From: Arabidopsis thaliana
Lineage: Eukaryota; Streptophyta; Magnoliopsida; Brassicales; Brassicaceae
DNA: 64,000 nucleotides
Reading direction: 5' to 3'
NCBI RefSeq assembly: GCF_000001735.4
Contig: NC_003070.9
Coordinates: forward strand, 8,494,001 to 8,558,000
The notes under the pieces are model-generated. The model was not told the DNA's origin and ran no database searches. It saw nothing but the letters and a program-made list of their open reading frames with translations. Shown here in pieces: positions 45,930 to 51,309 of the stretch (the first letter of the stretch is position 1; each line of letters starts with the position of its first letter). The position numbers and the translations under genes were made by a program.

Positions 45930-46361
45930 TGCCTTTTTCTTCTCATGTTTTTGCTTTTTATAGATGAACAAGCCCTTGCAACCCAAGCAGAACACCGCAA
46001 ACTCAATGAGTCACTTACTTACATATACTTTCGTTATTTTATTTATGTTATTGTTTTGTTGATTTTCATGGTTTAATACATCATGTCATATGTATATTAT
46101 GCTGGTGTTGTAGAAGAGACGATAACCATGAGAAGGAACTTGGAAGGCATAGGCGAAAAAGCTCCCAAATTGGGGTTATTCCGAGCACTTCACGTCATGC
46201 CGAGACAAAAACCTCTAAATAGCAACGAGAAAGAGTGTCCTTTTATAGAAAGACTAAGTCTTGTCAGTGCCGGTCCGGTAAAATGTGGGGCTAAAAATTC
46301 AAAACTGCTAAATTTTGTTTTTGTTGCTAACTATAGGGCATCCATAATTTTTATTTCTTAA
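45930..46361 (+). pseudogene. Degenerate member of the small secreted-peptide cluster (copy A)
   Basis: The exon 1 remnant at ~45918-46004 reads SSFICLFLLMF..DEQALATQAEHRKL, matching the other copies, but the start codon position is lost and the donor after CGCAAACTC reads ATGAGT instead of GTGAGT. The exon 2 remnant from 46113 reads EETITMRRNLEGIGEKAPKL and then drifts out of frame relative to its paralogues; the S-x-S core (PSTSRH) is still legible in another frame. A Helitron sits directly upstream, where the promoter of the other copies would be. Several independent defects mark it as a pseudogene. Confidence 0.7.
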
Positions 46362-47039
46362 ATTTTCTTAATTTTGGGGGTACTGTTTGCTAATTTTGGA
46401 ATATTTTTGCTAATTTCATGATTTTTTTTGTTAATTATGGGACTTAATAATAATTTAAAAAAACATAGAAAACGTAAAAATTTGAGACCCAATATAAATG
46501 TTTCAACATTATGCGTAAAAGGACAGGCCTTCCTAAAATTAGAACATTTTATATGATATCCTCTTAAGTCTTAAGTACTATCGAAGCCGGAGATTTCTAA
46601 GTTTTACTTTTACTAATTAAGCTATTGACACTTGATAAATGCCATATTTTTGCATTCCCTAAAACCTCAAAACTCTCTAAACACGTTTTTGTGGACATAT
46701 TAAAATAGTGTATTTTGTAGTCTCTTCCAGGTTTCTTCCTTCTTGTCAACGTCGCACAAGTCCGTTTACGGATATGGGTGAATAATTGAATATTATCCAT
46801 GTTTCCTTATTAGCAGTCGCTATTGTGGGTTTCTTTTTGGTAGTCTAATTTATTATTTACTTCTTTAAAATGGGGAAACAGATACAAAGTTGCATTACAT
46901 ATATAACGCAATACAATTAGATCCCATTTGACCGAGTAAACGCTAAGATCCACACAAACTCAATCGTCAACTCCTCTCTCTTCTCTATTCTATATAGTTG
47001 CGTGAAATGTAATGAAAGTGATCATCATTCACTTCTAAG
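46362..47039. promoter_or_regulatory. Promoter of peptide copy B
   Basis: AT-rich upstream region. Near 46870-47000 it carries 'acgcaatacaa..atcccatttgaccgagta', 'ccacacaaactcaatcgtca' and 'tctattctatatag', conserved with the promoters of copies C and D, including a TATA-like stretch. No other gene. Confidence 0.5.
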
Positions 47040-47169
47040 ATGGCGGTATCTATAGTTTCTTCCATCATTTTCTTTCTTCTGTTTATCATACTTTCACAAT
47101 ATGTAGATGGAAACGGTTTTGCTGCCCAAATGGAACATCGCAAACTCGGTGAGTCTTCTACCTGTATAA

Positions 47170-47201
<32 letters not shown>

Positions 47202-47616: not shown

Positions 47617-48521
47617 TCGCACTGTAGCTTCAAATGCCAATTCTGGATCGATAAAACGGTGTATATTTTCTAGTCTTCTTTTCTCGATACGACTATTTGT
47701 ATATTGATACATGGAGGTTTATATAACTTTGGCGTGACATATGTTGCCTTTGGAATGTTTAACTATATATTCTTAAGACAAAGAGAAGCTCGATGCATCT
47801 GTTTGGCTAAAGCTATAATGAATCTATTCCACGTACAAAAAACAACGAATGAATCCCTTTCGAGGGGTTTGAGGAAGACAGATGATAAACAGTGTTAAGT
47901 CCCCACGTGGCTGAGTAAACTAAAACATTGACATGCTTGAGCATGAAGCCAAAAATATTGGGATTTCCTATGTAATATCGCACGTTCATATGGTTCACTC
48001 CTTTTGATAGATGGCTGTGCGTTCAGGTCTTGGTCTTTTGTCTCTCTCTTACAATTATTAACGTATCTTATCATTTTTGAACGTCTGACTATTCTTTTCA
48101 CATTGTTTCTTCGTGTCACTTTCTTAAACCTTGTAGAAATCCCTCTCCTTAAAGACTGATCCTTTACTGAAATAAAAAGAAACACCACTATAGTAATTGT
48201 GATTTTTTTTTTTTTTTTTTTGTACAATAGTTCTCAAGTCAAGTGTCAATTCCTTTATTTTGTTATTTAAAAATAAAACTATTCCGTGGAAAAAAGGATT
48301 GGACATGTAAATATGGAATGAAATCCACTTGATCATACGGATACATGGTGTGCGGAGACCATAACTCAAAACCCCACAACAAACTAAGTCCTCATCTCGA
48401 CCACCTTCTCTATTCTATATAAATGCGTAAACGTGAGTCGGATTCAGACACATCACACATACAAAGTAAATTAGGTCAATTTTGTGATAAGTGATCATTA
48501 AGTAACAGAGTGATTATTAAG
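47617..48521. promoter_or_regulatory. Spacer and promoter of copy C
   Basis: About 48210-48480 is conserved with 50115-50450 ('aagtcaa.tgtcaa.tccttta', 'acttga.catacgg.tacatggtgt', 'cggagacca', 'tctctattctatataaatg'), so the promoters were duplicated with the genes. A T homopolymer lies at 48203-48221. No other gene. Confidence 0.5.
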
Positions 48522-49306
48522 ATGGCATCTTCGACATTCTATTCCATGCTATTTCTTCTTGTCCTCGTGTTTTCACTTCATGTGGATGAAGCTCTTGGTG
48601 CTCAAACTAAGATCCGCAAACTCAGTAAGATTACATATCGATATTGATCATATTGAATAACTATAGTATACTATTAAGTTATTTGACCCAATTACATGTT
48701 TTCACATAGTTTTTTATTTTATTTTATTTGAGAACATCATATATTTCTTCATCTCTTTTTCATATTCATTTTATTAGTCATTTATTACAAGAATAATAAC
48801 GTAAATTTATCTTTTTCTTTTTTAAAAAAACATTATATATCTTTAGAGACTTCAATATATACCTTATGTTTATACATTCGGATTTGGTGTAATATGCTAT
48901 AAGCCTATAATGTTACTTACTATGTCGCTTCATTAATTAGTCAATATATACATTAGTTTTATATATTCAAAACTACCTGCTTGACTTAGAAATTGAAGTC
49001 TGAATTGTATGGGTACGTGATGCAGAAGAGATGATCACGATGCGGAGGAATTTGGAAGGCAATATTGACTACAGAAGCTCTAAAAGGCGGACTGGAGGGA
49101 GTGTATCAAATCAATGCCGCAGTAAAAGTTATATCGAGATCGTCACCACTTATCTTCCTGAATCTGATGATTCGTCCGCCCCCTGTATAAAGTGTAACCA
49201 CGACTATTGTTATAGTTGCACCAAGACCAGACAGTGCACACGGTCCACTGGCTCACCCTGGACGTGCACCGTCACCGAGTTGTGTTGCCTTATAGTATAT
49301 TCATAG
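48522..49306 (+). CDS. Small secreted cysteine-rich peptide precursor, copy C
   Basis: Exons 48522-48624 and 49026-49306 join in phase 1 (AAA GAG ATG) to give 127 residues. The signal peptide MASSTFYSMLFLLVLVFSLH is followed by DEALGAQTKIRKL. Exon 2 has KEMITMRRNLEGN, then SSKRRTGGSVSNQC (S-x-S core), an acidic linker and a cysteine-rich end: PCIKC, YCYSC, RQC, GSPWTCTVTELCC. Nine cysteines in all. The C-terminal C-[IV]-[RK]-C…C…G-x-P…TCT…C pattern is shared with copy D. No named family is recognised. Secreted, role unknown. Confidence 0.75.
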
Positions 49307-50529
49307 CTTTAGATTTATCGGAGGCAAAATCAATAATCTGTTGAACATTTCTATATATTTTACATTTGTGAGTTGGAATCATATGTATACTATTGTTTTT
49401 ATCAAAATAATAATAACAATATATATAACGTTATATAACACTTTTTATCTATGACAATGTCAAATCTTGATATGTAAGTAACAAGGTGAGTCTAGCTATA
49501 TATAGGCTTGATCTTCATATCTTGGAGACCAAATCAAAGCACAAGACTTAGACCTTTATTATATGATATCCCAAAGAGCTTAAGAAACTTACCTTTCTAA
49601 AAATATATGACTCAGTTGTTTCTGTTACCAAAGAAATGAGGAATGTGATGCAAACAAAAGTAAAGGCAATTTTTAGGCAGAGTTAAATAAAAATCCGTTT
49701 CATGTAAGTTTTTCATTATAGTCCTTGTACCCAGAAGATGAATTTTCGTGGCCCATATTTGGATTCTGCCACTTTTGCACCAAATTTTAATTCCATAATT
49801 TTTGCATCAACATTTTGGTTTTGCAATTTGGCAGAAAATCTCGATTGTTAGTTTCTATTTTTAAACCGATTGATAGTTAACTTTGTAGGCGCATTTTCTC
49901 GATTGTAGACCGCAAAACGGAGTTATCATTCGGAGCCTAATTAGTTTCAACGTTTAAACTACTATTTTTTAATTAAAAAAAATATGTATTTTGGCAGAAA
50001 ATTCCCTCTCTCTCTCTCAAAAGATTAATCTGTTTTTCTTCTGTAAATCATCTAAATTAAAGACCTATCTCTTTATTGAAATAAAAGCAATACGAATGTG
50101 TTTATATTTACATACGTTTTTCTAAAGTCAATTGTCAACTCCTTTATTTTATTTTTTTCTGTTTTTTGTTGGTCAAATTTGTTTTTTTTTTAAAGGAATG
50201 TACAAAGCTGCCCCGGGAAAATAATGCAATGAAAACCACTTGACACTTGACAGAGTATAATAAAACATGGTGTAGAGTGCAGAGACCACTAAATATCCCA
50301 AGATCAACAAGGGACAAACTGAGTCATCTCTCTCTTTCTTCTCTACCATAAGTTTAAACTCTCTCTTATCTCTAACTCTATATTCCACATAAATGAAATA
50401 AACGTGAGTAACAGTCATTAAGTAGAGATAAAAGAAAGTTTAATTAGCTCAGATTCAGCTCATGCAACGTCCTAAATTAGGTCAGATTCAGTGATTAGTG
50501 ATAAGTAGTAACAGAGAGATTTATTAAGA
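49307..50529. promoter_or_regulatory. Spacer and promoter of copy D
   Basis: The promoter part (50115-50500) is paralogous to that of copy C. About 49680-49990 looks like a degenerate repeat ('ggcagaaaat' twice, 'tctcgattgt' twice). No other gene is supported. Confidence 0.45.
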
Positions 50530-51309
50530 TGTTGTCGTCGTCAACAGTTTCTTTCATGTTATTTTTTCCTCATGTTTTCGATTCATATGAATGAAGCTCT
50601 TGGTGCTCAAATTGAAATCCGCAAACTCGGTGAGTTTTTTCAAAAATCTTTTACTCATCCATATATTCATATGTTTAATTACGAGTTATGTTGATAATAT
50701 TAATAGATGTGATCCAGTTACATGTTTTCACATAGTTTTTTTTACATATATTATTTATGAAAATTATATTTTTTAAAAACAAATCATATTCATTTTACTA
50801 GCAATTTATGCACCTGAATAAAAGAGAGCAATATTTTTTAAAGATTCTCAAAGTATCTCTGTTATTTCAATATTAGGATCTAGTGATTATGCTTTTTGAG
50901 TTGCTTACTAGTTAGCTTTGTAATTAGTTCAGCATATAGATAAACTAAAGAGTTACATATCATTGAAATTTTCAATGGCTTGAGGCTATATATAAATTAT
51001 AAGTGTGAAAGTAATGCAGAAGAGACGATGGTGATGAGGAGGAACAAGAAAGGTAATGGCTTCGTAACCTCCAAAATAGATGTTCCACCAAGCGCATCAC
51101 AACATTGCGGGGGAGGTAAACGTTTTAAGAACATGGCGACCACTAATCGCCATGATGATCAGTTCAGTCCACTTCCAGGAGGCGTCTCTTCCTCCCTCTG
51201 TATAAGATGCGTTACCACCCAACGTTGTGTAGGGGCCGTAGGCGCGCCACGCTCGACGTACACTTGCACTATCATCTCGAAACAGTGTGAAAATATACCT
51301 GGCCATTGA
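50530..51309 (+). CDS. Small secreted-type cysteine-rich peptide gene, copy D (signal peptide disturbed)
   Basis: Exon 1 ends at 50629 (CGCAAACTCG|GTGAGT) and exon 2 is 51020-51309, with the same phase-1 junction as the paralogues. Exon 2 reads EETMVMRRNKKGNGF, SKIDVPPSASQHCGGGK and a cysteine-rich end (LCIRC, QRC, GAPRSTYTCTIISKQC). The ATG at 50530 aligns with the start of copy C, but exon 1 is about 5 bases shorter within the signal peptide and that frame stops at a TGA. An internal ATG (about 50570) leads into the conserved NEALGAQIEIRKL frame but leaves no full hydrophobic leader. The gene may be newly broken, or may use a start I cannot see. Confidence 0.5.

Follow-up and report, generated by a model that had tools for sequence, protein, structure and literature searches.

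The window analyzed here is a stretch of 64,000 nucleotides from Arabidopsis thaliana chromosome 1 (NC_003070.9, positions 8,494,001 to 8,558,000; coordinates below are those of the window and refer to its forward strand unless marked otherwise). It harbors a tandem cluster of four small genes for secreted peptides, designated A to D, which we regard with a probability of about 0.8 as a small, diverged locus of PROSCOOP genes, the SERINE RICH ENDOGENOUS PEPTIDE (SCOOP) precursors. Copy B is located inside AT1G24145, whose published position Chr1:8540838-8542053 corresponds to 46838-48053 (PMC11149889, Table 1). This gene is reported to be adjacent to AT1G24147 (PMC4112631), which is copy C according to the gene order. 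An earlier note on this DNA had marked the sites of the four copies, and they reappear as two repeat families with four members each, D2 at the end of exon 1 and D1 at the start of exon 2. Copy D is probably AT1G24148, a name that we presume.

The two-exon layout proposed in the earlier note, with a signal-peptide exon ending in RKL, a phase-1 junction and a subsequent MRRN, agrees with the introns of B, C and D, which are GT..AG and in phase 1. Exon 1 of copy B (47040..47148) encodes the signal peptide and ends in HRKL; exon 2 (47339..47616) contains MRRN, an S-x-S epitope (ATPGSTSRHSGQK, 47401-47451) and a shortened tail, in which most of the cysteine-rich part is gone and two cysteines are kept (SPCKIYTRC). 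Copy C consists of exon 1 (48522..48624) with signal peptide and IRKL end and exon 2 (49026..49306) with MRRN, a weak S-x-S epitope (RTGGSVSNQCRSK) and a cysteine-rich tail. The predicted products are open proteins, 128 residues long in B and 127 in C, and the hydrophobicity of exon 1 indicates a signal peptide in each, so that the predicted models show a signal-peptide exon followed by a motif exon; A and D have no signal peptide in their present state. Exon 2 of copy D (51020..51309) is open and encodes MRRN, the epitope DVPPSASQHCGGG (51073-51123) and a cysteine-rich tail, but in its exon 1 (50529..50629) the frame from the start codon at 50529 ends after 21 codons, and the RKL end lies in another frame. 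In copy A the exon 1 remnant (45930..46005; frame ...LATQAEHRKL) lacks a start codon at the corresponding position, and the expected donor at 46006 reads AT for GT. Its exon 2 remnant (46114..46330) has MRRN in one frame and the epitope (QIGVIPSTSRHAETKTS, 46166..46216, with IPSTSRHAE) in a different one, the frame changing between them; the codons nevertheless align with those of STSRH in copy B. An RxLx site, the putative cleavage site, spans the junction in every copy (RKLG in B, RKLK in C, RKLE in D, RKLK in A). The decay described in the earlier note, with A dead, D damaged and B short of the cysteine-rich end, is borne out. Copy A represents an old, copy D a recent loss.

The proteins of the four copies are much more alike than shuffled sequences, every ordered pair yielding a z score between 6.7 and 15.2 that 0 of 300 shuffles attain. 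The duplication noted for the promoters of C and D corresponds to a shared block: 48231-48268 (repeat family D7) within the 500 bp upstream of C (48022..48521) is 87% identical over 38 nt to 50120-50157 in the corresponding region of D (50029..50528). Non-coding likeness extends to the intron of C and D (85% over 48 nt) and to the upstream regions of B and C (77% over 53 nt). The ratio of nonsynonymous to synonymous differences per site (pN/pS) is 0.58 for B-C (bootstrap 0.46-0.74), 0.65 for B-D and 1.05 for C-D, mixed results from a comparison of paralogues whose synonymous sites are near saturation. Aligned exon 2 sequences of B, C and D agree throughout in MRRN, N, SK, S-x-S, K, P, C and P. 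The picture of small secreted-peptide genes with recent tandem duplication, fast decay and a role in signalling or defence was judged right.

The view that these genes belong to no named family is wrong or at least incomplete. They fit the PROSCOOP layout, i.e., two exons, phase 1, an RxLx site and S-x-S, which the earlier note missed because it focused on MRRN and overlooked the S-x-S downstream of it. The large majority of PROSCOOPs are described as having two coding exons, with the signal peptide in the first and the SCOOP motif in the second (PMC9784617), and most precursors are reported to carry an RxLx or RxxL subtilase motif (PMC13157962). S-x-S is the published signature of the SCOOP peptides, which are ligands of MIK2 (PMC8448819, PMC7846792). 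Its two serines, positions 5 and 7 of the epitope, do not vary among B, C and D, where they are in frame, and copy A has them in another frame. The SKIATPGSTSRH of copy B is similar to native SCOOP10#1 SAIGTPSSTSDH, and the PPSASQHCGGGK of copy D to SCOOP10#2 GPSGSGHGGGR (peptides from PMC9784617); the published SCOOP10#2 peptide has a 100% match on contig 5 of the genome. Counted by eye, 16, 17 and 16 residues separate the basic pair from S-x-S in B, C and D versus 15 in SCOOP10#1. The glycine end of the epitope is CGGGK in D, a single G in B (SGQK) and missing in C; a glycine run is also absent from several of the SCOOP-type epitopes that served for training.

The epitope was evaluated with a 17-column matrix established from 19 SCOOP-type epitopes at other loci, none of them from the cluster. 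The training set comprised two published SCOOP10 peptides, the only ones checked against a paper, and 17 epitopes chosen by position and S-x-S, located around PROSCOOP10 and at positions that we take to be those of EWR1 (AT3G13437), of the SECRETED TRANSMEMBRANE PEPTIDES (STMP) and of AT1G36622/40; the models at the EWR1 position are candidates for EWR1 itself. Scoring covered the six-frame windows of the 64-kb stretch, with MRRN-containing open reading frames (ORFs) excluded from the background. No window scores as high as copies B and D, neither among the 582 with S-x-S nor among all 45,551, and in the leave-one-out control 18 of the 19 training epitopes are beaten by 0/582 and the remaining one by 1/582. 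The best background window is the epitope of copy A in its separate frame. If nothing is excluded, copy D comes first, copy B second and copy A fourth among 46,774 six-frame windows. In 200 kb from other loci (141,359 windows), four non-training windows reach the score of copy B, namely two training genes in shifted register, one glycine run and one stretch at the presumed EWR1 locus. The matrix also picks out more SCOOP-like stretches outside the training set (L011:4921, L011:6947, L012:630, L015:2142), two of which have S-x-T rather than S-x-S (KIQTPRSVT, QIATPPSLT).

A further line of evidence is provided by hhalign, with which a profile of B, C and D was compared to those of five sequences from the presumed EWR1 locus and of seven SCOOP sequences from chromosome 5. 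The E values of the cluster were 0.0012 (EWR1 locus) and 0.00022 (chromosome 5), and the two SCOOP-type groups matched each other with 0.02 (probability 2.4%). After column shuffling, the cluster obtained z scores of 7.5 and 7.6 (0/400 each), and the value between the two reference groups was 3.2 (2/400). Reversing the chromosome-5 profile gave a z score of 1.1 (41 and 44/300), and the tail of C and D, used as a further control, scored -0.7 and 1.2. Among single copies, B, equalled by 0 and 1 of 300 shuffles of the two profiles, and D, by 3 and 0, stand on their own, and A, by 14 and 0, does so in part. The gene structure points in the same direction. Of 16 SCOOP-type targets outside the window, 15 yielded a model with a two-exon finder, and the top-ranked model was phase 1 in 15/15; several of the modelled genes show RKL or a similar site at the junction (KFRKL, KFRKI, GRKL). 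In another round, run with a more permissive cut-off, phase 1 was best in 8 of 10 targets, two were without a model, and other phases were lower-ranked in two; this round missed the RKL junction of copy D and gave false junctions for it.

Several observations weigh against the assignment to the PROSCOOP genes. Only the two SCOOP10 epitopes of the training set are verified from a paper, and copy C alone is not significant, neither with the matrix (3/582 S-x-S windows and 19/45,551 windows score as high) nor in the profile shuffles (49 and 64/300). The hhalign probabilities are low despite the small E values, namely 19.5% for the EWR1 locus and 45.4% for chromosome 5. Masking of the two serine columns reduces the z scores to 2.3 (13/300, EWR1 locus) and 2.8 (6/300, chromosome 5), and the reversed EWR1-locus profile still reaches 3.4 to 3.5 (2/300). 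The serine-masked and single-copy results together imply that the link to SCOOPs rests on S-x-S with its neighbors in B, D and A. When cluster proteins are aligned pairwise with individual SCOOP-type proteins, the signal is weak, with a best z score of 3.2, but it is also weak between SCOOP-type proteins from different loci (median z of 0.87 over 64 pairs, of which about 9% exceed 3), and this whole-protein test has too little power. Phase-1 junctions are common downstream of signal peptides in secreted proteins, and the shared phase is for this reason weak evidence. According to published descriptions, the SCOOP motif is part of a conserved C-terminus (PMC8448819), whereas in the cluster S-x-S is followed by a further 62 (B), 65 (C) and 69 (D) residues. 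Some of the other SCOOP-type models are also tailed, with up to 37 residues after S-x-S, and we therefore treat the internal epitope as a variant and, given the deviation from a C-terminal epitope, term the genes PROSCOOP-like; it weakens the claim of membership more than that of function. Finally, the core of the W-box is not enriched in the 500 bp upstream of C (three; 81/300 shuffles as high) or A (one; 187/300), and the strict form TTGACY is not enriched in 500 bp upstream of any copy (300 shuffles).

The number of W-box cores is raised in the upstream regions of B (46540..47039) and D, which contain four (10/300) and five (2/300), respectively. RNA sequencing data report a 26-fold induction of AT1G24145 by flg22 and an 11-fold one by AtPep1 at 30 min, which was confirmed by quantitative reverse-transcription PCR according to the same paper (PMC11149889), thereby supporting the earlier guess of an immune role; the absence of expression at all four loci, which had been named as an argument to the contrary, accordingly does not apply. 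A published screen had set the gene aside as an “unknown protein”. Topoisomerase VI subunits are furthermore reported to bind AT1G24145 and AT1G24147, and the two genes to be linked with responses to reactive oxygen species (PMC4112631, citing Simkova 2012). We rejected the designation of AT1G24145 as a histone deacetylase in a figure legend (PMC7835529), as copy B corresponds to a secreted protein of 128 residues without a Pfam match above cut-off.

Copy B alone combines an intact frame with a strong epitope, and it is for this copy that induction has been published; we therefore read it as the working member of the cluster, with C diverging and D and A broken. In a plausible scenario, pattern recognition would raise transcription via WRKY factors, and the precursor would enter the secretory path and might be cut by a subtilase at RKL-x or by another protease at the dibasic MRR. 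Published analogues are the RRLM of PROSCOOP12, which is cut by SBT3.5 (PMC13157962), and the cleavage at dibasic pairs reported for SCOOP12 extracts (PMC8448819). After its release, the S-x-S peptide from copy B (approximately ATPGSTSRHSGQK) would be bound by MIK2 together with BAK1 and amplify immunity. Copy C with its poor epitope is probably drifting or acquiring a role based on its tail.

The tail of C and D is the point of departure for another explanation, according to which the genes represent an orphan family. Its working product would be a mini-protein formed by the cysteine-rich C-terminus, antimicrobial or receptor-binding in function, and MRRN and S-x-S would be a mere pro-region. 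The tail pattern that the earlier note had described for C and D is indeed present, with 34% identity over an aligned stretch of 90 residues; C and D score z 14.4-15.2 against shuffles, C retains a good signal peptide as well as eight cysteines behind a poor epitope, and the only two strands in an AlphaFold2 model of its exon 2 (three sequences) are both located in the tail. The cysteine-rich tails of C and D are unlike the SCOOP genes modelled here. Yet the mean predicted local distance difference test (pLDDT) score of this model, 44.0, is too low, for which reason it was not used for a fold search, and the spacing of the tail differs between C and D, the latter having five cysteines after the epitope. 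Searches of Pfam, NCBIfam and PDB sequences retrieved no match above cut-off for the cluster proteins, and the genome search with the tail of C found only the tail itself and no second copy. Moreover, copy B, for which the induction is published, is devoid of the tail, and the occurrence of S-x-S in all four copies would be left unexplained, which makes an orphan family unlikely. Rather unlikely, too, is a combination with the PROSCOOP reading, namely that C and D are two-part precursors of an internal MIK2-type S-x-S peptide and a separate cysteine-rich mini-protein, co-released on immune activation, and that C, with its epitope fading and its tail kept, is a phytocytokine gene turning into a cysteine-rich effector or ligand.

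Decaying relics without a peptide function, with AT1G24145 induced as a side effect of open chromatin next to co-induced neighbors, would account for the two broken copies out of four and the C-D ratio of 1.05, and AT1G24140 and AT1G24150 are reported to be coordinately regulated in topoisomerase VI mutants (PMC4112631). Given that start codon, splice sites and complete frames are retained in B and C, that the B-C ratio is 0.58, though with synonymous sites near saturation, and that a strong epitope is kept in B, we consider this quite improbable. A phytocytokine of the CTNIP/SCREW type, or another cysteine-containing one that acts via a receptor such as HSL3, shares with the cluster, as compared by description, the short, secreted and elicitor-induced precursor and the cysteines near the C-terminus (PMC9191895). 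CTNIPs however depend on a pair of conserved cysteines within about 23 residues at the C-terminus, and the last 23 residues of B contain none. The cluster in turn has S-x-S; C and D are rich in cysteines, but a genome search with exon 2 of D at E values up to 10 recovered D, C and B only. Such an affiliation is thus highly improbable, and the diverged PROSCOOP locus is the reading that we retain.

No link between AT1G24145, AT1G24147 or AT1G24148 and SCOOPs was found in the papers searched. A set of 50 PROSCOOPs is reported from 19 loci (PMC11331138); the odds that the cluster genes are already on this list are about even. The assignment offers a name and a direct test for AT1G24145, a flg22-induced orphan. 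If true, the SCOOP repertoire includes genes in which the epitope is internal and a long, cysteine-rich tail comes after it; a search aimed at C-terminal epitopes can overlook such genes. The locus also brings together different stages in the decay of a phytocytokine family.

The flanking genes encode, according to Pfam, a peroxidase, WD40, matrixin, formin FH2 and GT8 proteins, a set that fits the order that we assume for AT1G24110 to AT1G24170. Apart from the cluster, the window contains three adjacent, similar-looking ORFs on the reverse strand (2057-2646, 4960-5301, 6653-6970), the second of which matches Pfam Bet_v_1 and which probably form a tandem Bet v 1/MLP-like cluster. A tRNA-Val (AAC) gene (26290-26363) and a U5 spliceosomal RNA gene (31095-31211; full-length Rfam match, 85.2 bits) are also located on the reverse strand.

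Among the known systems, the STMP models, at a locus whose position we presume, resemble the cluster in the GRKL end of exon 1 and in the presence of residues after S-x-S that include a cysteine, but their Arg/Pro-rich tails are shorter (longest 37 residues after S-x-S) and without the C..C pattern of C and D. Another counterpart is found in the genes of the presumed EWR1 locus, whose junctions KFRKL followed by KEDLRMSMKIGTPHSDS, KFRKI followed by KDEIREMIHIHKTKKIQTPRSVT and KS followed by KEETIAETIHIRKVMKIRVPRSKS are close to RKL followed by KETITMRRN and to SKIATPGSTS in the cluster; the latter differs by a longer spacer from the basic pair to K-I-x-T-P and by longer tails. The motif (E/K)(E/K)x[IMT]xMRRN probably corresponds to the post-junction stretch at this locus, a likeness that was seen by eye and post hoc. 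EWR1 and four close relatives have been reported as functional SCOOPs (PMC9784617, citing Zhang 2022). With the PROSCOOPs proper, such as PROSCOOP10 and PROSCOOP12, whose peptides are perceived by MIK2-BAK1, the cluster differs in that RKL precedes and MRRN follows the junction, in the spacer of 16-17 residues to S-x-S, in the 62-69 residues behind the epitope and in the cysteine-rich tails of C and D. What it shares with them is the succession of signal-peptide exon and epitope exon joined in phase 1, the S-x-S epitope, an RxLx or dibasic site near the junction, the arrangement in tandem clusters and, in copy B, the induction by elicitors.

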